From Microbacterium testaceum (lineage in GTDB: Bacteria > Actinomycetota > Actinomycetes > Actinomycetales > Microbacteriaceae): 64,000 bases of DNA. The notes under the pieces are model-generated. The model did no database searches, was not told where the DNA came from, and was given only the letters and a program-made list of their open reading frames with translations. The stretch covers positions 1-64,000 of the forward strand of contig NZ_BJML01000003.1 of NCBI RefSeq assembly GCF_006539145.1. The letters are read 5' to 3'. Both the position numbers and the translations under genes were made by a program. The first letter of the stretch is position 1. Each line of letters opens with the position of its first letter. Below are positions 21,448-39,600 of this stretch, piece after piece.

Positions 21448-21870
21448 TCAGCGGTTGAGGCGCCGAGTGACGGCGTCGATGCGGGCTCGAAGTTCTCGGG
21501 AGCGGAAGGGTTTGGTGACGTAGTCGTCCGCGCCGGCGTCGAAGGCCGAGACCTTGTCGGCGTCGTCGTGCAGGCCGGAGATGACGATGATGTGCGCGCT
21601 GGATCCGGCGGATCGTATGCGTCGAATGGCTTCGATGCCGTCCATGCCGGGAAGGGTCAGGTCCATCGTGACCAGGTCGGGGCGGATGGCCAGCGCCGCG
21701 CGAGCGCCTTCGGCGCCGTTGTCGAAGGCGTCGGTCGCGTATCCGGCGCTCTCGAGGATTCGCGTGAGCACGGACCGGACGTGCGGATCATCGTCGACGA
21801 CGACAGCGGTGGCGCAGGCAGAGAAATTCGAAGGGCTTGTGGGTTCTGAACGCTTGTCGAGAAGAGTCAT
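21448..21870 (-). CDS. Stand-alone response regulator receiver protein
   Basis: CheY-like single receiver domain of 140 aa with no output domain. Visible landmarks are acidic VVVDDDPHVRS, phospho-acceptor Asp in LVTMDLTLPGMDG, Ser/Thr in IIVISGLHDD and Lys in DDYVTKPFRS. No kinase is adjacent. It lies 91 bp downstream of the signal peptidase gene on the same strand, so it may be read with it, which would tie it to the surface-protein locus. The ATG at 21870 gives a normal receiver N-terminus with an extra ~20-residue leader; a longer reading covers the signal-peptidase 3' end. Confidence 0.85.
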   Translation of the reverse strand: MTLLDKRSEPTSPSNFSACATAVVVDDDPHVRSVLTRILESAGYATDAFDNGAEGARAALAIRPDLVTMDLTLPGMDGIEAIRRIRSAGSSAHIIVISGLHDDADKVSAFDAGADDYVTKPFRSRELRARIDAVTRRLNR

Positions 21871-21961
21871 GAGGTGACCGGTTGATCTTTCTGCGAGATG
21901 TGAAGATCCCGGTCCGTGAGGATCGGGGCGTGAGGAGTGGCCACGGGTCGATGTTCGTTCG

Positions 21962-22648
21962 TCACCACTGCGAGGACCGCCGCTGTCTGGGACCGTTCTG
22001 TTCTTGGGGGGCGAGGAGGGAGGGCTTTTCGGTGTGGGGATGCCGGTCTCCGGCGAGCCCGAAAACGTCCTCGAGCACCCGGTCCGTGTCCTCCGCCGAG
22101 GTGGCCGGGGGGTCCTTCTGGTCCGCGGGGTCGGTATCGCTGTCTTTCCGACCCCCGTCCTCGCCGTCCTCGCCGTCCTTGGCGTCGGCGGGCCGACGTT
22201 CGAGGGGAAGCAGGAGAAGGGCGAGAACGAGGACGGCAAGGCTGATACGCGCGGGGGTGGTTTGGACGTAGGCGAGAACGGCGGCGAGCGGGCCGCCGAT
22301 GTGGCCGCGGACGGCGCCTACGAGCTGGTCGTAGGAGATCGTGTCGGGGTCCGCCGCGGTGTTGCCGTCGCCCTTCAGGAGGGCCTTACCGTCGGTGATC
22401 TCTTGGATGCGGTGCGTATACATGCTTCCGTCGGGGCGTCCGACGGTGACGACGTGGCCGGGTTGAAAGTCGTCGGGGTGGGGGTCGCCGATGAGAACAA
22501 GGTCGCCGAACTCGTAGGTGGGCGCCATGGACTTCCCATCGACGACGACGAGCCGGGTCCCGGTGGCCAGAGTGATGGCGGCGGGGGCGATGAGGAGGGC
22601 GAGCAACGCGCCTACGATGCTCCAACGGAGGAAGGAGAGGATGCGCAT
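21962..22648 (-). CDS. Signal peptidase I, ER/SipW (S26B) type
   Basis: Membrane serine protease of 228 aa that removes signal peptides. The N-terminal anchor (about residues 8-30) is followed by the catalytic serine in DGKSMAPTYEFGDLV (near residue 42). The second catalytic position is histidine (SMYTHRIQEI) rather than lysine, which defines the ER/SipW-like subfamily, known in Bacillus to process TasA-type secreted proteins. A second hydrophobic segment near residue 140 and a highly charged ~70-residue tail (DGEDGEDGGRKDSD) follow; the tail is unusual. The ATG at 22648 has a GGAGG site; an ATG at 22699 overlapping the upstream stop (ATGA) is an alternative. A TasA-like likely client is encoded 3 kb away. 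Confidence 0.9.
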   Translation of the reverse strand: MRILSFLRWSIVGALLALLIAPAAITLATGTRLVVVDGKSMAPTYEFGDLVLIGDPHPDDFQPGHVVTVGRPDGSMYTHRIQEITDGKALLKGDGNTAADPDTISYDQLVGAVRGHIGGPLAAVLAYVQTTPARISLAVLVLALLLLPLERRPADAKDGEDGEDGGRKDSDTDPADQKDPPATSAEDTDRVLEDVFGLAGDRHPHTEKPSLLAPQEQNGPRQRRSSQW

Positions 22649-22695
22649 TGTGCCTCCAGGTGAGTATCGGGTGATGGCCGGTGGGGTGGAGCGCG

Positions 22696-23268
22696 TCACA
22701 CGCGCGATAGCAGGCGCGCGCGCGGTTGCGGACGTTCGGGGCGCGAGGAGGACTGAGCGGTCGATGCCTCGAGGCAGAGGTGCGTGATGTCGGCGGGGCG
22801 GGGGACTCGGACGCGGAAGTGCACTGTTTGGGTCGCTGAGGGCAGGAGGGGCGAGACGGCGCAGAACGCGGGGTTACCGGACGTGTCGATGGTCAGCGGT
22901 GTCGACCACGTGGCACCGTCGGTCGTGCTGGCGGCGAGTGTTACTTCGCGCGCATCCGATGCACTGCTGCGCAGTTCAATACCGAGTATCCAGTCGACCG
23001 CCTCGCCGCTCGTATTGTGCGCATTGATGGCGAATGCGTACACGTCCGCCTGCGCATCGAATGCCGGAGCGGTGAGCGAAGAGGTGGTGTGCGCGGCGAT
23101 GCGGCCGCCGTCCGTGTGTCCGAGACGGATCGTGTCGTGCGTGCACGAGTCAGGGGTGGGGGTCACGGCGGACGAGGACGGCGCAGCGTGGTCGACGCCG
23201 AGCGTGAGAAGAACGACAGCAGACGTGGCCGTGTGCGGTCCCTGAGGGTTCGGCCGGACGATGCTCAT
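22696..23268 (-). CDS. Unknown exported-looking protein upstream of the SipW-type peptidase
   Basis: Protein of 190 aa that I do not assign to a family. It begins with a weak hydrophobic stretch (ATSAVVLLTLGV) that may be a poor signal peptide. A beta-rich domain with phrases such as VDWILGIELRSS and GATWSTPLTIDTSG follows, echoing the TasA-like protein's VDWKVQMAS and GSTWSKTW; it is therefore probably a distant relative of the same surface-protein fold. Three cysteines are present. It is first in a minus-strand unit with the signal peptidase (stop overlaps an upstream peptidase start as ATGA). ATG preceded by GGAGCGGC. Confidence 0.7.
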   Translation of the reverse strand: MSIVRPNPQGPHTATSAVVLLTLGVDHAAPSSSAVTPTPDSCTHDTIRLGHTDGGRIAAHTTSSLTAPAFDAQADVYAFAINAHNTSGEAVDWILGIELRSSASDAREVTLAASTTDGATWSTPLTIDTSGNPAFCAVSPLLPSATQTVHFRVRVPRPADITHLCLEASTAQSSSRPERPQPRARLLSRV

Positions 23269-23686
23269 GCCGCCGCTCCTTCTTGGTGTGGGTGGGTGCC
23301 GCTCGGCAGCTCGAGTACTCGTCGGCTGACACGCGGACGACGGTTCCGGCACCTGACCGGGCCTCCTCCTGGCGCAGGCTCACTCTCGTAAGAACACATA
23401 ACGGATCAAAACGGTGCGTATCGGATCTAACGCACCATAGCAGGAATCGCCTCGATCGTCCCGTCTGTTTAGGGAGCGCCCCGCGAAGTGCGCGCGGCAC
23501 CCTCGTCCGTAGAGTGCGAGAGTCGAACCAGGTCCGTCCGCAACGCCCATGACGTTCACGTGTCTTCTGGTCGACGAGCGGTCGTCCCCTGCGTGCCGGG
23601 AGCGCTGATTGCCGCCGGATATTAGCGGCGGGGCCCGCACGGCGGGGGCGTTATGAGCAAGTTGTTCAGATCCTTAGAATCTTCGC
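23269..23686. other. 418-bp divergent intergenic region
   Basis: No credible gene. The left side holds the presumed promoter of the signal-peptidase unit. Visible there are inverted repeats GGTGCGT (23413-23419) and ACGCACC (23430-23436), and two minus-strand direct repeats of GATCCG followed by A/T-rich bases (about 23401-23430), possible regulator sites. The right side ends in the promoter of the acetoacetate-decarboxylase-like gene. The A+T content is higher than in most of the window. Confidence 0.5.
23675..23680 (+). promoter_or_regulatory. -10 box suggesting a leaderless transcript
   Basis: TAGAAT ends six bases before the GTG start of the next gene, and no ribosome site is present between them. 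This spacing places the transcription start at or next to the start codon, i.e. a leaderless mRNA, common in actinobacteria. The -35 region is weak. Confidence 0.5.
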
Positions 23687-24424
23687 GTGCTAGCTTCCGA
23701 GGTCCTGCAGCTGCTGACCACGCCTGCCAATGTGCCGTTCATCGCTCACTTAGGTGCGCCGAATATTCGCCGGAGCATTCTTCGCGTCGATTATGTGACC
23801 GATGAGCACGCCGCGCGCAAGCTCCTTCCGGAGCCCCTGCATCTGCCTCTGATTCCGCGCGCCAGCGTGTTCTTCACGCAGTTCTTCAACTCGCACGGGG
23901 ATGTTCCCCTCCTCGAAGTGACGCAGTCGATCGAAGCGGTCAGCTCGGCAGGCGTCGTGGGGGACTACATCCAGGCGGTCTACACGGACAACGTGACCTC
24001 GATCATCCACAACCGTGAGGCCTACCTGCAGCCCGTGCTGTACGGCGTGGGGTCGATCGTGCACCGAGACGGAGCGAGCAACTTCTCTTTGGCCGTGAAC
24101 GATACCGTCGTCGTTCACGGGAGTGCGGGCTACCGAAGCGAGCCGATGTTCGCCGACGACGCCGTCGAGTTCCTGCAGCGCCCCAAATTCTTCCTGAAGG
24201 TGCTCGGGCGGCCGGCATTGGGCGAGCCGGCGAAGCCCACTCTCTTCATGTTGCGCAGCGCAAAGCTCGAGGTCAGCGAAGCCTACCGGCTGCCGTCGCG
24301 GCTTACCCTCGACGGCCACATCATGGCCCCCTTCGATCAGCTGCCCGTACGTCACATCGACTCGTGCCACACATTCGAAACCACGTGGTCGATCGGCGAA
24401 ACGGAAGTCCTGCACCGTTACTGA
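23687..24424 (+). CDS. Acetoacetate decarboxylase-family protein lacking the usual catalytic lysine
   Basis: Protein of 245 aa aligning along its length with acetoacetate decarboxylase (ADC): VDYVTDEHAARKLLPEPL near residue 35, GDYIQAVYTDN near 90, and the C-terminal LDGHIMAPFDQLPVRHI. In Clostridium ADC the Schiff-base lysine lies in a YPKKLG segment; here the corresponding segment reads YLQPVLYG with no lysine, so classical decarboxylation is unlikely. ADC-superfamily relatives without this lysine catalyse other reactions (aldol, hydratase or cyclase chemistry), so the function is open. It is isolated, divergent from the signal-peptidase unit, and appears to have a leaderless transcript. 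Confidence 0.78.
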   Translation: MLASEVLQLLTTPANVPFIAHLGAPNIRRSILRVDYVTDEHAARKLLPEPLHLPLIPRASVFFTQFFNSHGDVPLLEVTQSIEAVSSAGVVGDYIQAVYTDNVTSIIHNREAYLQPVLYGVGSIVHRDGASNFSLAVNDTVVVHGSAGYRSEPMFADDAVEFLQRPKFFLKVLGRPALGEPAKPTLFMLRSAKLEVSEAYRLPSRLTLDGHIMAPFDQLPVRHIDSCHTFETTWSIGETEVLHRY

Positions 24425-24546
24425 CTTCCCGGGGAGCCTGCGCGGCAGGCTTCGCAACGCGCGGCGACGTTACAGCTGGCTCCCCTCGTTGCGCGGACGC
24501 TGCCGCCTCAGCGTCCCGTGCGAACGGAGTCGAGCGTCGATCCTGT

Positions 24547-24789
24547 TCAGCTCGAGGGCGTCGCCACCTCAGGGGTGCTCCGGTCAGCCACGTTCGAGGT
24601 GCTCGATATGTACTCGACCACCTCGTCTCGCACGATGACCCACTTCGAGCCGATGTGGTACGCGGGCAGCTCGCCGGACTGCAAGTACTCATAGACGGTC
24701 TTGCTGTTCAACCCGAGCACCTCGGCGACGTCTCTGGCGGAAAGGATCGGCGGATATCCAGCGAACAGGTGCTCGAGGTGCTTAGGCAT
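24547..24789 (-). CDS. Small excisionase/MerR-type helix-turn-helix protein
   Basis: DNA-binding protein of 80 aa with one HTH_17 domain (LSARDVAEVLGLNSKTVYEYLQSGELPAYHIGSKWVIVRDEV), the fold of phage excisionases and BldC-like regulators. No integrase or attachment site is visible nearby, so it is more likely a BldC-like regulator than a true excisionase, possibly of the adjacent surface-protein genes. The ATG at 24789 is preceded by GGGAGC; an ATG 30 bases earlier is also possible. Confidence 0.75.
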   Translation of the reverse strand: MPKHLEHLFAGYPPILSARDVAEVLGLNSKTVYEYLQSGELPAYHIGSKWVIVRDEVVEYISSTSNVADRSTPEVATPSS

Positions 24790-24986
24790 GGCGCTCCCGG
24801 GGGGTAACAGACTCGTCACAGTTTAGGGGCAGCATGCCCAATAACAGCCTGATCCGGCGCGATTTTGCGTGAAGCGCACTACATCGGGTGTAGAGCTCGA
24901 GGCGGAATAGAGTTGTTAGGGGCTGTTGACGTCGGCTATGGTCCACCTGAGTCCATTTCAACCCGTTTCATACCAAAGGATCTTCT

Positions 24987-25679
24987 GTGGATTGTTCTGT
25001 TCCGGTCGTGCCCTCCCCGGCAGCGCCCGCGATCACGGCCTCGGGAGGGTCCGGACTTGCGGCAACAGGCTCTCCCATGGACGTCATACTCGCCTGCGCC
25101 ATCGCGCTCGTCCTTCTCGCGGGTGGCGTCATGGCTTTGGCCCGGTCGCGTCGGCGTCGCCGTGAAGCGCTGCCCTCTTCCACGGCGGCCGCGCCTGGCG
25201 TGGGGCTCGCTCTGTCGAGTGTGCTGGGCGTGATCTTGCTCTTGGGGGCCTTCTCCCCGTCACAGGCCGCGCATGCCGCTCCGGAACAGTGCGATGTCAT
25301 CTCGGTATCTGATGTGCAGATCGACGCGACCGTGCTCGCCGGCGGAGTGATCCAGCTCGTACCCGGCGGTCAGCCTGCCGTCGTTCGCGCGTCCGTGACG
25401 AACTCCACCACCGTGGCCGTGACCCTCACCGCGATCGCTCGCACCGATAACGCCGTCCCCCTCGCGACACAGATCGTGTGGAAGAGCGAGAGCTCGAGTG
25501 GTTCGGCCGTCGAGTCCAGCTTGGGTGACTCCGACTCGCACTCCCTCGGGACCTTGGCTCCGGGTGAGAGCACCACGGTGACGTTCGCGGTGAACTTGCC
25601 CGCCTCGGTCGGGAATGAGTACCAGGGCCAAACAGTCCCCCTCAGCCTGCTCGTCCAGGCCGTCCAGCAGGGCTTCTAA
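24987..25679 (+). CDS. Two-segment membrane/exported protein with an N-terminal LAATG motif
   Basis: Protein of 230 aa with an odd order. Residues 24-28 read LAATG, followed by a hydrophobic segment (about 32-52) and RSRRRRRE, exactly the layout of a C-terminal sortase sorting signal but at the N-terminus. A second hydrophobic segment (about 70-90) ends AHAAPEQC like a signal peptide. The outer domain (about 97-230) ends in the LPASVGNEYQGQTVPLSLLVQAVQQ pattern seen at the C-terminus of SipW-dependent TasA/CalY-like proteins. The GTG has a proper AAAGGA site six bases upstream. It precedes the TasA-like gene by 145 bp in the same direction and may be its minor partner. Confidence 0.72.
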   Translation: MDCSVPVVPSPAAPAITASGGSGLAATGSPMDVILACAIALVLLAGGVMALARSRRRRREALPSSTAAAPGVGLALSSVLGVILLLGAFSPSQAAHAAPEQCDVISVSDVQIDATVLAGGVIQLVPGGQPAVVRASVTNSTTVAVTLTAIARTDNAVPLATQIVWKSESSSGSAVESSLGDSDSHSLGTLAPGESTTVTFAVNLPASVGNEYQGQTVPLSLLVQAVQQGF

Positions 25680-25695
25680 CACCCGCACCTCGCGC

Positions 25696-25711
25696 GCCCG
25701 CATCTGCGGGC
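25696..25711 (+). terminator. Small hairpin after the LAATG protein gene
   Basis: GCCCGCA and TGCGGGC separated by two bases, 16 bp after the stop. It could be a weak terminator or attenuator between this gene and the TasA-like gene. Confidence 0.35.
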
Positions 25712-25824
25712 TGCGCCCCCACCTTCTCGTCGAGCCGCTACGCCACCTTCGTTCGCACTCGTCGAGCCCCTCAGCCTCCCTTTCCGACCCGAAGCACGAC
25801 TCACCACTAAAGAAAGCAGATCCC

Positions 25825-26400
25825 ATGTCCACCACCAAGCGCTCCTTCTCGAAGAAGAAGGTCCTCGTCGCCTCCCTCGCCCTGCTCACTATGGGCCTGG
25901 GCGGCACGGTTGCCACCGGCGCGTACTTCACCGCCGACAAGACCGTTTCCAGCAACACCCTGGCGTCCGGCACCGTCGTGATCGGGAACATCGGCGACGA
26001 CGCGTCCTCCACAGCGGCGCTGTCGTTCACCAACGTGCTCCCGGTTGCGTCCTCGGACGTCGCGACCAAGGCCAAGATGTTCAACATCAACGTCCGCAAC
26101 AACGGAACGGCGGCCGTTGACTGGAAGGTCCAGATGGCTTCCACCTCGAGCGACTTCGCCAAGCAGGTCAACGTCGAGTACAGCACCGACAATGGCTCGA
26201 CCTGGTCGAAGACATGGACTGCTGACGACCTCCGAAACGTCTCCATCCCGGGCACCTCCTCGCTCGCTGCTGGCGGAACCGCGGTGATCAAGTTCCGTGC
26301 GTGGCTGCCCGCCGCCACCGACAACACAGCCCAGGGTAAAACTCTTACGTTCTCGACCGTTGTGAACGCCATCCAGGCTGGCGCTCCGTTCTCGTCCTGA
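25825..26400 (+). CDS. TasA/CalY-like SipW-type secreted protein
   Basis: Secreted protein of 191 aa. The basic N-terminus (TTKRSFSKKK) and long hydrophobic core are followed by the hallmark ATGAYFTADKTVSSNTLASGTV, the cleavage and post-cleavage pattern of SipW-dependent camelysin/TasA proteins (YFTD...NTFTAGT). The mature part is a beta-sandwich-like domain ending in a conserved TFSTVVNAIQ. TasA family members in Bacillus polymerise into extracellular fibres. The client role for the S26B-type signal peptidase 3 kb away is inferred. The ATG is preceded by AAAGAAAG rather than a strong ribosome site. A terminator follows immediately, suggesting a single or terminal abundant product. Confidence 0.82.
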   Translation: MSTTKRSFSKKKVLVASLALLTMGLGGTVATGAYFTADKTVSSNTLASGTVVIGNIGDDASSTAALSFTNVLPVASSDVATKAKMFNINVRNNGTAAVDWKVQMASTSSDFAKQVNVEYSTDNGSTWSKTWTADDLRNVSIPGTSSLAAGGTAVIKFRAWLPAATDNTAQGKTLTFSTVVNAIQAGAPFSS

Positions 26401-26408
26401 CCCTCGCG

Positions 26409-26439
26409 CGTGGGCGCCGGCAGCACGCTGGCGCCCACG
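26409..26439 (+). terminator. Terminator after TasA-like gene
   Basis: Ten-base perfect arms (CGTGGGCGCC and complement) with an 11-base loop, eight bases after the stop. Confidence 0.7.
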
Positions 26440-26534
26440 TTCCCTCGCACGGCGGCTCGCCGACCTCGAGATGCATTCGTACCTCCCCTTCATTGAATGC
26501 TGAGTAAAGACCACACAACAGGAGCGCCAACATT

Positions 26535-28460
26535 ATGCAGGCCAGATATCGCGCCTTCGCTGTCGCCCTCATCGTTTCCGTCTTCGGTGCGGTGTCCCTT
26601 TGGCCCGGCGCCGCAACGGCGGCTGAGAAGGATATCGCGGTGGGCGGCGAGCCCACGTCGATCGTCGTGAGCCCCGACGGCGGGACGCTGTACGTAGGGA
26701 ATTACGACACCGGTGCGGTGACAATCGTTTCCACCGCAACAAGATCTATCGAGGGCAGCATCGAGGCGGGCGCCGCTCTGACCGACCTGGCCGTGACACC
26801 TGACGGCGAATACTTGTTCACGGCGACTCGATCGGCGATCCAAAAGTTCTCCACAGTGGGGCGGAATCTTGTTCGTGAATGGCTGCTTGGCGAGTCCAGC
26901 GCTGGTATCGCGCTGAGTCCTGATGGGGAGGCTGCTTACGCAACTTCTGGCAACGTGTTGAGGGCCTACCTTTCCACCGGTGCAACGACGCTGGCTGCGG
27001 TCGGAGGCTCTCCGACGTCCCTTGCAACCACGCCCGACGGCAAACGGGTCCTCACGACGAGCGGAGACGACAACACTGTCTCGGTCGTATCGGTCGACGA
27101 GAGGCAGGTTCTGGCGACCGTCCCTGTGGGGATCTTTCCGACGGACGTGGCGGTAACGCCAGACGGGGATCTGGCGCTTGTCACGAATGGAGTAGGCACG
27201 GTGTCCGCTATTGATCTCAGCGACAACACCGTGCTGGACACCATCCGGGTAGGGCGGACGCCCATGGCCGTGACAACGAGCGCCGACAGCCAATGGGGCT
27301 ACATCGCGAACGCCAACGACGATTCCGTCTCCGTGATCTCGCGACAGACCCGGTCGGTTGTGCGGACCATTTCGACTGGCGACCGGCCGGTGGCCCTCGC
27401 TCTGAGCCCCGACGACAGCACGCTTTACGTGGTCAACAACACGAGCCAAAGCGTCTCTGTTCTCACCGTCGAGCGTGCGCCGACGTTCACCGCCTCCACT
27501 CCAAGCGAGACAGCAACGGTTGGAACTCCCTACTCATACGCCTTCGCCGCATCAGGCTTCCCGGCACCGACATTCGAAGTATCTGAAGGGTCGCTCCCGG
27601 ACGGGCTCATGTTGAGTTCGGATGGCGTCTTGTCGGGCACACCGACAAAATCTGGTTTGAGCTCGTTCCGCGTCACCGCGTCCAACGGTGTCGAACCCAA
27701 CGTCACCACCGACTCGATCACCATCGGCGTGAACGCCGGACTGGTGGCCCCGAGCTTCACTGCCTCGAACCCCGACGAGATCGCCACCGTCGGCACCAAG
27801 TACGCCTTTAAGTTCGCTGCGTCCGGACACCCCGCGCCGCTGTTCACGGTGTCACAAGGATCCCTTCCGGACGGACTCGAGCTCGACGAGTTCGACGGGA
27901 GCCTGAGGGGATACCCCACCACCGTCGGCACCAGCACGTTCACCGTGACCGCATACAACGGGGTGGATCCCAGGGCGACGACCGGCCCCATTACGATCAC
28001 TACTCAGCCGGCACCCGGTGCCCCCGTCTTCACCGCATCGACACCACCACCAGCGGCTACGGCAGGGACGCCCTATTCCTACCGGTTCGCCGCGAGCGGA
28101 TACCCGGAGCCGCACTTCTCTATCACGCAAGGAGCGCTTCCGGACGGCCTCATGTTGAGCAGTGACGGATGGGTATCAGGAACACCCACGACCGCGGGCA
28201 CGAGCACTTTCGCCATCACCGCGTCCAATGGCACTGAACCCGACGCCAACACCGACCCCATCACGGTCACCGTTTCCGCGGCGCCTCAGGTTGCGAATAC
28301 GCCCGAGCAGCAGATCCGCAGCGACGCGACTCCATCAGCCGCCGGCACGCTGGCGACAACCGGCAGCATCGCAAGCCTGGCCGCACCCTTGCTCGGAGCC
28401 GGACTGCTTGCCGCGGGCGTCGTCGCCACAATCCTCTACCGAAGGCGCCGTCCACAGTAG
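26535..28460 (+). CDS. YVTN beta-propeller / Ig-domain surface protein with LATTG sorting signal
   Basis: Cell-surface protein of 641 aa. A signal peptide (about 1-29, ending ATAA) precedes seven or so YVTN-type propeller repeats (residues about 32-315; phrases such as SPDGGTLYVGN, TPDGEYLFTA). Three putative-Ig He_PIG repeats follow (about 318-590), each with FAASG-P-P-F---GSLPDGL and SGTPT landmarks. The end is a sorting signal: LATTG near residue 606, a hydrophobic segment and YRRRRPQ, matching class E sortase LAxTG substrates. No sortase gene is in the window. The gene uses noticeably more A/T-ending codons than the housekeeping genes, suggesting transfer. It probably functions in adhesion or wall-surface binding; the ligand is unknown. 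Confidence 0.85.
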   Translation: MQARYRAFAVALIVSVFGAVSLWPGAATAAEKDIAVGGEPTSIVVSPDGGTLYVGNYDTGAVTIVSTATRSIEGSIEAGAALTDLAVTPDGEYLFTATRSAIQKFSTVGRNLVREWLLGESSAGIALSPDGEAAYATSGNVLRAYLSTGATTLAAVGGSPTSLATTPDGKRVLTTSGDDNTVSVVSVDERQVLATVPVGIFPTDVAVTPDGDLALVTNGVGTVSAIDLSDNTVLDTIRVGRTPMAVTTSADSQWGYIANANDDSVSVISRQTRSVVRTISTGDRPVALALSPDDSTLYVVNNTSQSVSVLTVERAPTFTASTPSETATVGTPYSYAFAASGFPAPTFEVSEGSLPDGLMLSSDGVLSGTPTKSGLSSFRVTASNGVEPNVTTDSITIGVNAGLVAPSFTASNPDEIATVGTKYAFKFAASGHPAPLFTVSQGSLPDGLELDEFDGSLRGYPTTVGTSTFTVTAYNGVDPRATTGPITITTQPAPGAPVFTASTPPPAATAGTPYSYRFAASGYPEPHFSITQGALPDGLMLSSDGWVSGTPTTAGTSTFAITASNGTEPDANTDPITVTVSAAPQVANTPEQQIRSDATPSAAGTLATTGSIASLAAPLLGAGLLAAGVVATILYRRRRPQ

Positions 28461-38379: not shown

Positions 38380-39600
38380 ATGGCCACGTCCCGTTTTCTC
38401 CGACCTCTTACCCTCGTCGTCACGGGTGTCGGTCTCGCCGCGGTCATGGGGGCCGCAGCGATGTCCCCCGCCTCGGCGGCGACCGTGATCGACGGCCCGG
38501 TCGATCTCGGCACCGCCAGCACCTACGGCGTGCTCGGGGCCAGCGCCGTCACCAATACCGGCCCCACGCTCGTCAACGGTGACCTGGGGCTCTCCCCGGG
38601 AACGTCCATCACCGGCTTCGGCGGTTTGCCGGACGGCGTCGTGAACGGCACCGTCCACCAGACCGATGCCGCGGCGGCGCAGGCGCAGCAGGACGCTCTC
38701 ACGGCATACGGCACCGCCGCCTCACTGACGCCGACTCGCACCGGCCTCGAGGAGCTCAACGGGCTGTCTCTGTCGCCCGGCGTGTACTCCGGCGGCGCTC
38801 TCGCCCTGGCCGATGCGGGCGCTCTGACCCTCGCCGGGGACGCGAACTCGGTGTGGGTCTTCCAAGCGGCATCCACTCTCACGATCGGCTCGGGCAGTCG
38901 CATCACGATCACCGGTGGTGCGAGCTCGTGCAACGTGTTCTGGCAGGTGGGCAGTTCGGCCTCCGTCGGCACCGCCGCGCAGTTCCAGGGCACCGTCGTC
39001 GCCCAGCTGTCCGTCACGGCGACCACCGGCGCGACCGTCCAGGGCCGCCTCATCGCTCAGAGCGGTGCGGTGACACTCGACGACAACACGATCACCGCCT
39101 CCACCGGCTGCCCTCCTCCGGGCACGGTGTCGGAGACGACCGCTCCGACCATCACGTCGCCGCCGCCGGGCAACGCCATCGTCGGTGAGGGCTACACCTC
39201 GACCATCACCGCCACGGGAAACCCCGCGCCGACCGTCACCGTGACCGGGTTGCCCGACGGCCTCGTCTTCGACAGCGGCACCGGAGTCATTTCGGGGAAG
39301 CCCACGACGCCCGGCGATTACGCGGTGGTCATCACCGCGTCGAACGGCACCGCACCCGACGCGACGCAGAACGTGAACCTCGTCGTCGGCCAGCCCGCTC
39401 CCGCGCCGAGCCCCTCGCCGTCGGCCTCCACCCCGCCGACCGGCAGCGCGACCCCGCCCCCGGGCATTCGCGCCGACACTCCCGGCGGGCTCGCCGTCAC
39501 CGGTACCGATCCGACGATGGCGCTGAACCTCGCCGGCGGATTACTCGTCGCCGGTCTCGTCGCCGTCGTCATCTCCCGACGCCGCGCACGTCGCTCCTGA
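38380..39600 (+). CDS. Ice-binding-like (DUF3494) surface protein with LAVTG sorting signal
   Basis: Exported protein of 406 aa. A signal peptide of about 37 residues ends SPASAA. The DUF3494 beta-solenoid follows (about 40-245), recognised by [44 protein letters not shown], and [14 protein letters not shown]. One He_PIG Ig-like domain (about 250-330) and a Pro/Ser-rich linker precede LAVTG (near residue 371), a membrane segment and RRRARRS. It is thus wall-anchored by an LAxTG-type sortase. DUF3494 proteins bind ice in psychrophiles but are also found in adhesins of mesophiles; ice binding is not established here. Confidence 0.88.

Follow-up and report, generated by a model that had tools for sequence, protein, structure and literature searches.

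A SipW-type export locus in Microbacterium testaceum with TasA-like proteins and a candidate wall anchor sorted from its front

What does a locus that combines a SipW-type signal peptidase with TasA-like proteins build in an actinobacterium, and how would its product be held to the cell? The question is raised by positions 21448-28460 of a 64,000-nucleotide stretch of Microbacterium testaceum DNA (the window), where the genes encode, in order of increasing position, a receiver protein, an S26B signal peptidase (P0002) and P0003 (all on the reverse strand), an acetoacetate decarboxylase (ADC) homolog (forward), a helix-turn-helix (HTH) protein (reverse), and P0005, P0006 and P0007 (forward; Table 1). 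An earlier sequence-only reading had proposed an analog of the SipW-TasA system here, and all of the genes it named are present at or close to where it placed them. The comparisons below support a SipW-type export locus with TasA-like clients that is conserved as a unit; the roles that had been given to P0005 and to the YVTN/Ig protein P0007 have to be changed.

From the genes, their homologies, co-occurrence and layout, and the pattern of cysteines, we infer a fibre, a sorting step and a disulfide. The locus would make a TasA/camelysin-type surface polymer in which the S26B peptidase cuts the SipW-type client P0006, and P0005 is a wall anchor with its sorting signal in front and its two pieces joined by a disulfide; on this reading as a whole our belief and doubt are evenly balanced.

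The peptidase and its TasA-like neighbors

P0002 scores 65.7 bits with TIGR02228 (cut-off 51.85) and has, by count on the translation, Ser40 in GKSMAP and His79 in MYTHRI. Ser/His in place of Ser/Lys is the mark of the S26B, or SipW, group, and the earlier assignment to this type is upheld; with the Bacillus SipW model NF046067 the score is 31.7 bits, below the 190-bit cut-off. The genome (3.59 Mb) has three TIGR02228 matches, of which P0002 is one. Two more S26B-type matches in the same genome (C8, locus L015, and C10, locus L016), one of them below the family cut-off, have short SipW-type-looking clients alongside and apparently belong to separate systems.

A profile built from five P0006-like proteins (A1) recovers from the same genome P0006, P0003 (6.9e-9), P0005 (2.3e-6) and further paralogs, and a sequence search also pairs P0003 with P0006 (E 1.2e-9). 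By sequence similarity the three are confirmed as one family of mutually homologous proteins, as had been suggested for the third beta-rich protein beside the peptidase, P0003; none of the three has a family match over cut-off in family-model scans.

Peptidase and TasA-like genes were expected to co-occur in relatives, and they do. The A1 profile has matches in 23 of 398 Microbacteriaceae genomes, and the regions fetched around the P0006-like matches were searched with a SipW profile based on four of these peptidases. A peptidase lies in the fetched region of 20 of the 22 genomes other than our own; both genomes without one have contigs of just 4.7 and 4.1 kb, and a second place in G376 (L070) gives no peptidase match in its fetched region. 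In the reverse direction, the P0002 subfamily, delimited at E 1e-12, is present in 10 of the 398 genomes and has a TasA-like neighbor in all ten: P0006-like and P0005-like genes in seven, our own included (the P0005-like gene of G528 is frameshifted), and TasA-like genes of a C-terminally sorted kind in the other three (G198, G309 and G372).

Gene order is partly kept as well. One small contig (L005) of a metagenome-assembled genome (M105) reads P0006-like, P0003-like, peptidase, receiver, so that there too the receiver gene adjoins the peptidase gene. A sister locus (L004), which is the same site as that in the window with 82-97% identity in three blocks, reads P0003-like, ADC, HTH, P0005-like, P0006-like. 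These five kinds of gene also make up a second copy in our genome (C4), where four RCC1-type proteins bearing SipW-type signals come after them; the genome's three TIGR02228 matches all lie elsewhere. Elsewhere, L047, L048 (G376) and L049 (G278) are clusters in which multiple S26B peptidases (five and three matches of the P0002 type) accompany numerous TasA-like and RCC1-type proteins, and they directly adjoin ribosomal protein genes.

P0006 contains the ATGAYFTADKTVSSNTLASGTV stretch that had been named as the hallmark of SipW-dependent proteins. Among fourteen P0006-like proteins, the SipW-dependent signal model TIGR04088 matches five at E up to 0.1 (best 7.3e-6), and the camelysin family PF12389 also matches five at that threshold (best 8.2e-5). 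When the profile of all fourteen (A3) was compared with the 177,635 sequences of the PDB, TasA ranked first and second (5of1, E 0.0081; 8aur, E 0.0093), followed by an archaeal bundling protein, a likeness qualified by its E value of only 0.13 and its archaeal source. Profile similarity thus places the P0006 family in the TasA superfamily in a broad sense, with E values that are weak and a rank that is at the top. In an AlphaFold2 model of P0006 (8 alignment rows; mean predicted local distance difference test score, pLDDT, 70.6, and below 50 for residues 1-42), residues 46-190 can be superposed on residues 39-238 of TasA 5of2, with 130 residues aligned (Z 7.8; root-mean-square deviation 3.7). 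A chance TasA motif was rejected as an explanation, the own-genome profile, the PDB ranking and the camelysin matches opposing it.

P0006 would polymerize as TasA does, each subunit donating its mature N-terminal strand to the next. In TasA fibres the donor strand comprises mature residues 28-38, according to the portions of PMC9674648 and PMC10151520 used here.

Several results count against such a fibre. P0006 itself scores 13.7 bits with TIGR04088, under the 19-bit cut-off, so that the SipW hallmark stands as a motif and falls short as a model match, and it has no match to PF12389 at E up to 1. The structural check proposed earlier also gave a divided answer: ten chains not known to be related to TasA reach Z 8.0-8.7, within 1 of its 7.8, and in a Foldseek search with the P0006 model no TasA is among the best 50 of 1276, where lysozyme inhibitors and other beta-sandwiches come first. 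The structure comparison favors TasA, and the fold alone is not decisive. The displayed parts of three loci with P0005-like genes (G207, G431 and G664) contain no peptidase.

The locus might instead export single, non-polymeric surface proteins, with TasA-like domains that are spacers or ligand binders and SipW-type N-termini that are alike because one peptidase recognizes them. The conserved client N-terminus may indeed be kept only for this recognition, which alone could conserve residues around the cut; just A33, F35 and T36 are invariant there in A3. The argument for a fibre draws on homology and on no further fibre-specific feature, and some RCC1 proteins of G376 and G278 are fused to a TasA-like domain (in a fibre, such fusions might sit within it or along it). 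What speaks against single proteins is that TasA, which forms filaments (PMC9674648, in the part used here), takes the top two places in the profile search, and that the third match is named a bundling protein. We consider export of single proteins unlikely, if worth keeping in mind.

The front of P0005 and its cysteines

P0005 had been grouped with the SipW-dependent proteins. It is a TasA-family relative, as the A1 profile shows, but not a SipW-type client; it appears to be anchored at its front, by an N-terminal LAATG-helix-RRRRR module that the sequence-only reading had missed together with the cysteine pair described below. After MDCSVPVVPSPAAPAITASGGSG and LAATG come a hydrophobic helix and RSRRRRR; a second helix with SQAAHA behind it leads to APEQC and the TasA-like domain. 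The module has the LPXTG/LAXTG-helix-basic-tail layout of sortase substrates and occupies residues 24-71 of 230, not the C-terminal position of the usual substrate.

The P0005 front matches NF058583 (LAXTG small protein) with E 3.8e-5 and 23.3 bits against a cut-off of 65, the difference being that P0005 continues into a secreted domain. Among 11 P0005-like fronts, at E up to 0.1, NF058583 finds seven, NF058582 five, and NF041528 and TIGR01167 two each. A strict [LM]xxTG motif is present in 15 of the 18 intact members, and all 14 members tabulated have an [AVS]xA site after helix 2 and before the first Cys of the domain. These 14 have 0-3 basic residues in the N-terminal peptide and 3-7 in the loop, which by the positive-inside rule would put the N-terminus of P0005-type proteins outside.

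We therefore prefer to read P0005, from its sequence, as a wall-anchor subunit with a short N-terminal peptide outside. Its LAATG-helix-Arg module would be a sortase substrate at the front of the protein, the TasA-like domain would be freed at AHA by an ordinary signal peptidase, and a disulfide between Cys3 and Cys102, suggested by co-occurrence and parity, would be the sole covalent bond joining the domain to the peptide that sortase attaches. The best reading is that the sorting signal has moved from back to front, with a disulfide joining the pieces.

Few proteins have the front layout. Among 964 gene calls from 126 loci, a scan listed eight family members and one permease, which occurs in two loci and has no Cys; the scan passed over members whose start the gene caller had placed too late. 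In 297 genomes of the order, the P0005 profile at 1e-8 finds only our own genome and G664. At E 0.01 the whole-protein profile matches 338 of the 398 genomes; most of the listed rows cover just the first ~60 positions, and many of these continue to the stop codon that ends a long frame, the behavior expected of ordinary C-terminal sorting signals. Three such front-only places in our own genome, found with NF058583, were inspected and are C-terminal signals. The window itself also encodes a 423-residue secreted protein whose C-terminus bears an ordinary LAVTG sorting signal (39478-39597; L110). A misplaced start that makes the LAATG part an artefact was rejected, because the part is kept in 18 intact members and because in G207, G431 and G664 the start of the P0005-like gene overlaps the stop of the preceding gene. 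A lipobox at the N-terminal Cys was also rejected, no signal-type hydrophobic stretch being seen ahead of it on reading. In L125, a SipW-type client with an ice-binding domain (PF11999; 10256-12349) directly precedes a front-anchored protein, the start of which overlaps the client's stop.

The idea of a Cys pair was set down after a first alignment of 11 members, and new members were sought afterwards. Seven were found (G207, G431, G664, G858, G852, G832 and G791, the last five from another family of the same order), and all seven have a Cys at position 3. In every one of the 18 intact members, P0005 included, the N-terminal peptide contains a single Cys and the domain either one or three; a nineteenth (G528), frameshifted and left out of the 18, shows LAETG and a Cys at the corresponding position. 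At background frequency, the probability that the first 14 N-terminal peptides would all contain a Cys is roughly 2e-15, a figure that gives scale only, as the proteins are related.

Natural controls are provided by other actinobacterial SipW loci (L056 to L148), which share with the locus in the window a homologous TasA-like domain (hhalign E 3.7e-9, probability 96%), a peptidase neighbor and an xTG-helix-Arg module (16 of 17; L065 has just the helix and Arg). In those proteins the module is C-terminal and there are two mature Cys, whereas here it is N-terminal and accompanied by an extra Cys pair. In all 17 of the C-terminally sorted homologs, two Cys follow the signal and the first 30 mature residues are free of Cys (the count covers genes within four of a peptidase, and 5 of 22 rows, with a C-terminal helix and no TasA-like profile match, were dropped); for 13 of them the Cys positions were tabulated a second time. 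Within the same distance of a peptidase, no C-terminally sorted homolog is listed in loci with a front-anchored protein. Both SipW-type clients with a G664-type domain (G925 and G791) contain two Cys, the first domain Cys being absent, and 13 of the 14 P0006-like proteins have no Cys, the other having a single one in the signal peptide. Among the sequences compared, the extra Cys pair thus occurs where the module is at the front; a pair that made good a link broken by the module's move would be expected to behave in this way. Our genome has three sortase matches and one VKOR match, which make both the sortase and the disulfide activity plausible.

This anchor also has results to contend with. 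The P0005 model is poor (pLDDT 42.9), with TasA only at Z 5.2 and rank 49, and a profile of the P0005 domain finds no TasA in the PDB, the matches being designed Ig proteins and antibodies. The front motif is degenerate in 3 of the 18 members, 11 of the 18 carry one or two additional Cys within the helix or loop part, and the members are related, so that 18 are not 18 independent events. G073 (L017) has a client, a peptidase and propellers, and the 20 kb fetched revealed no front-anchored protein.

The degenerate motifs would suit a plain double-pass membrane tether, in which no sortase takes part and the Cys pair closes the ends of a hairpin at the membrane surface; topology alone could explain the helix-Arg-helix order. 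Sorting-signal models nevertheless recognize the module in members, if below cut-off for P0005, the homologous protein elsewhere has a C-terminal sorting-type end with xTG in 16 of 17, and the [AVS]xA sites stand behind helix 2 in all 14 members tabulated, and we find the tether rather improbable. Bonds between molecules, giving dimers or chains, are permitted by one peptide Cys and an odd domain count, and are the least credible alternative, since the extra pair tracks the position of the front module, which a bridge within the chain explains directly.

Ends and base of the proposed fibre

The gene next to P0006 appears to be a slot for passengers. The YVTN/Ig protein noted there before, P0007, is present, but it has by reading an ordinary signal peptide and its own LATTG, and it was rejected as a SipW-type client. 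In the sister locus L004 an RCC1-repeat SipW-type client replaces most of it: between window 26454-28391 and L004 3824-5834 there is no blastn match, and the flanks are 91-97% identical. The mature starts of the L004 passenger (AWFTADKTVSSNSL) and of P0006 (AYFTADKTVSSNTL) are alike. Eight large proteins with SipW-type starts were scanned, of which six have RCC1 repeats, one a YVTN-type propeller and one an ice-binding domain. None of the 18 large passengers whose real end is in view bears a C-terminal sorting signal (22 listed from 16 loci; the others are L013 3-1169 and L048 2-2755, at a region edge, and two frame-broken pieces in L052). One of 23 rows was dropped (L117 6319-7515, an ordinary-signal protein with its own sorting signal), and one of the four C4 passengers was included, the ends of the other three being viewed separately.

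In Bacillus, TapA has a fold complete in itself, shares its first residues with TasA and is placed at the filament end, as described in the portions of PMC9674648 and PMC10151520 used here; the former adds that TapA is 'thought to be involved' in fixing TasA fibres to the wall. By the same argument—a shared N-terminus and placement at the filament end—the beta-propeller passengers of the sister loci would plausibly be fibre ends. They would donate a strand only, because they have a client-type N-terminus and, where the end is in view, no sorting signal; P0005 would accept a strand and donate none, because it lacks a SipW-type N-terminus, and would form the fibre base; and P0006 would do both, which gives the fibre a polarity from end to base. 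This fuller scheme, with a two-piece wall anchor (a sortase-fixed front signal, a cut domain and one disulfide) as acceptor-only base and interchangeable beta-propellers, exported by the same peptidase, as donor-only ends, is tentative, and we lean somewhat towards doubting it.

The closest known system is tapA-sipW-tasA of Bacillus subtilis, which, in the same portions of those two papers, also has an S26B peptidase beside a TasA-like secreted protein, a mature N-terminal stretch before the jelly roll, and accessory proteins sharing that N-terminus. It differs in that the accessory proteins of the sister loci are beta-propellers, that a P0005-type anchor exists here, and that the peptidase and main client of the window lie on opposite strands. 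An LPXTG near the N-terminus is known from pneumococcal IgA1 protease, ZmpB, ZmpC and ZmpD (PMC9637739, PMC7939560; also PMC2705793), and IgA1 proteases are cut further on, 56 residues beyond it (PMC9637739, PMC7939560). Those are large metalloproteases of streptococci and relatives, with no TasA-like domain, and the portions of PMC9637739 and PMC7939560 consulted mention no Cys pair; P0005 has no M26 protease or G5 domain among its Pfam matches at E up to 1. Among the listed open-licence literature matches, as far as their available portions go, none concerns an N-terminal sorting signal on a TasA-like protein and none, in title or abstract start, a TasA-type fibre in Actinobacteria. The open-licence literature gave no match for RCC1 with a signal peptidase at the actinobacterial cell surface, nor for 'alternate signal-mediated exported protein'. 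An N-terminal LPXTG is already known, and what appears to be new is an N-terminal sorting signal on a TasA-like protein with a Cys pair.

Remaining genes and wider meaning

The receiver protein is an orphan as proposed, with no Pfam match beyond its receiver domain, and the BldC/excisionase-like protein likewise proved to be what it had been called. As proven regulators of the locus both were rejected, neighborhood being the whole basis for that role. At its start P0003, a possible minor subunit of the fibre, fits neither the SipW type of signal nor the ordinary one clearly; its end is rich in Arg. The decarboxylase-like gene belongs to its family by Pfam match, but the Pro-Lys-Lys of two solved ADCs (3bh2 and 3bgt) aligns with Pro-Val-Leu. 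The gene is present in three locus copies (the window, L004 1156-1893 and L013 8985-9738), and across these the motif reads Pro-Val-Leu or Pro-Ile-Leu. An active enzyme was rejected on the lack of this motif, and the product may be a binding protein instead.

Table 1. Features of the locus, in window coordinates
Feature	Positions	Strand	Notes
Receiver-domain protein, stand-alone (orphan response regulator)	21448..21870	-	PF00072 E 4.5e-30; likely start 21870
S26B (SipW-type) signal peptidase P0002	21962..22648	-	TIGR02228; best start 22648 (ATG)
P0003, TasA-like protein without clear SipW-type signal; proposed minor subunit	22696..23268	-	Homologous to P0006
ADC homolog	23687..24424	+	PF06314 E 1.2e-24
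BldC/excisionase-like HTH_17 protein P0004, divergent from P0005	24547..24819	-	PF12728 E 5.1e-13; TIGR01764 over cut-off
P0005, TasA-like protein with N-terminal sorting-type module; proposed wall-anchor subunit	24987..25679	+	
Cys3 in N-terminal peptide of P0005	24993..24995	+	
LAATG, first hydrophobic helix and Arg-rich loop of P0005	25056..25199	+	
Second hydrophobic segment and AHA cleavage site (predicted) of P0005	25200..25277	+	
TasA-like secreted domain of P0005	25278..25676	+	Cys102 at 25290-25292
P0006, TasA-like SipW-type client; proposed main fibre subunit	25825..26400	+	
Mature N-terminus AYFTADKTVSSNTL of P0006; proposed donor strand	25921..25962	+	Resembles passenger starts; TasA register from L46
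P0007, YVTN beta-propeller and He_PIG surface protein; passenger slot	26535..28460	+	Ordinary signal, C-terminal LATTG

The G+C content is 0.63-0.66 over 22-28 kb and 0.69-0.72 in the two or three counting windows on either side, and P0006 is present in only 3 of 148 near genomes, our own included; together these suggest that the locus is a patchily inherited island. VapBC-like toxin-antitoxin genes and a serine recombinase adjoin locus copies (L013 12003-12649 and 15431-16030; L018 8875-9171; translations read by eye), a possible sign of mobility.

TasA fibres are a model Gram-positive biofilm scaffold, and their fixation to the wall is only partly understood. If the reading proposed here is true, the TasA-type polymer of some Actinobacteria has an anchor in two forms, with the sorting signal behind or in front, and the cysteine pair of the front form predicts one specific bond. 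Anchoring of the P0005 type would be an unusual way of fixing a surface fibre to the cell.

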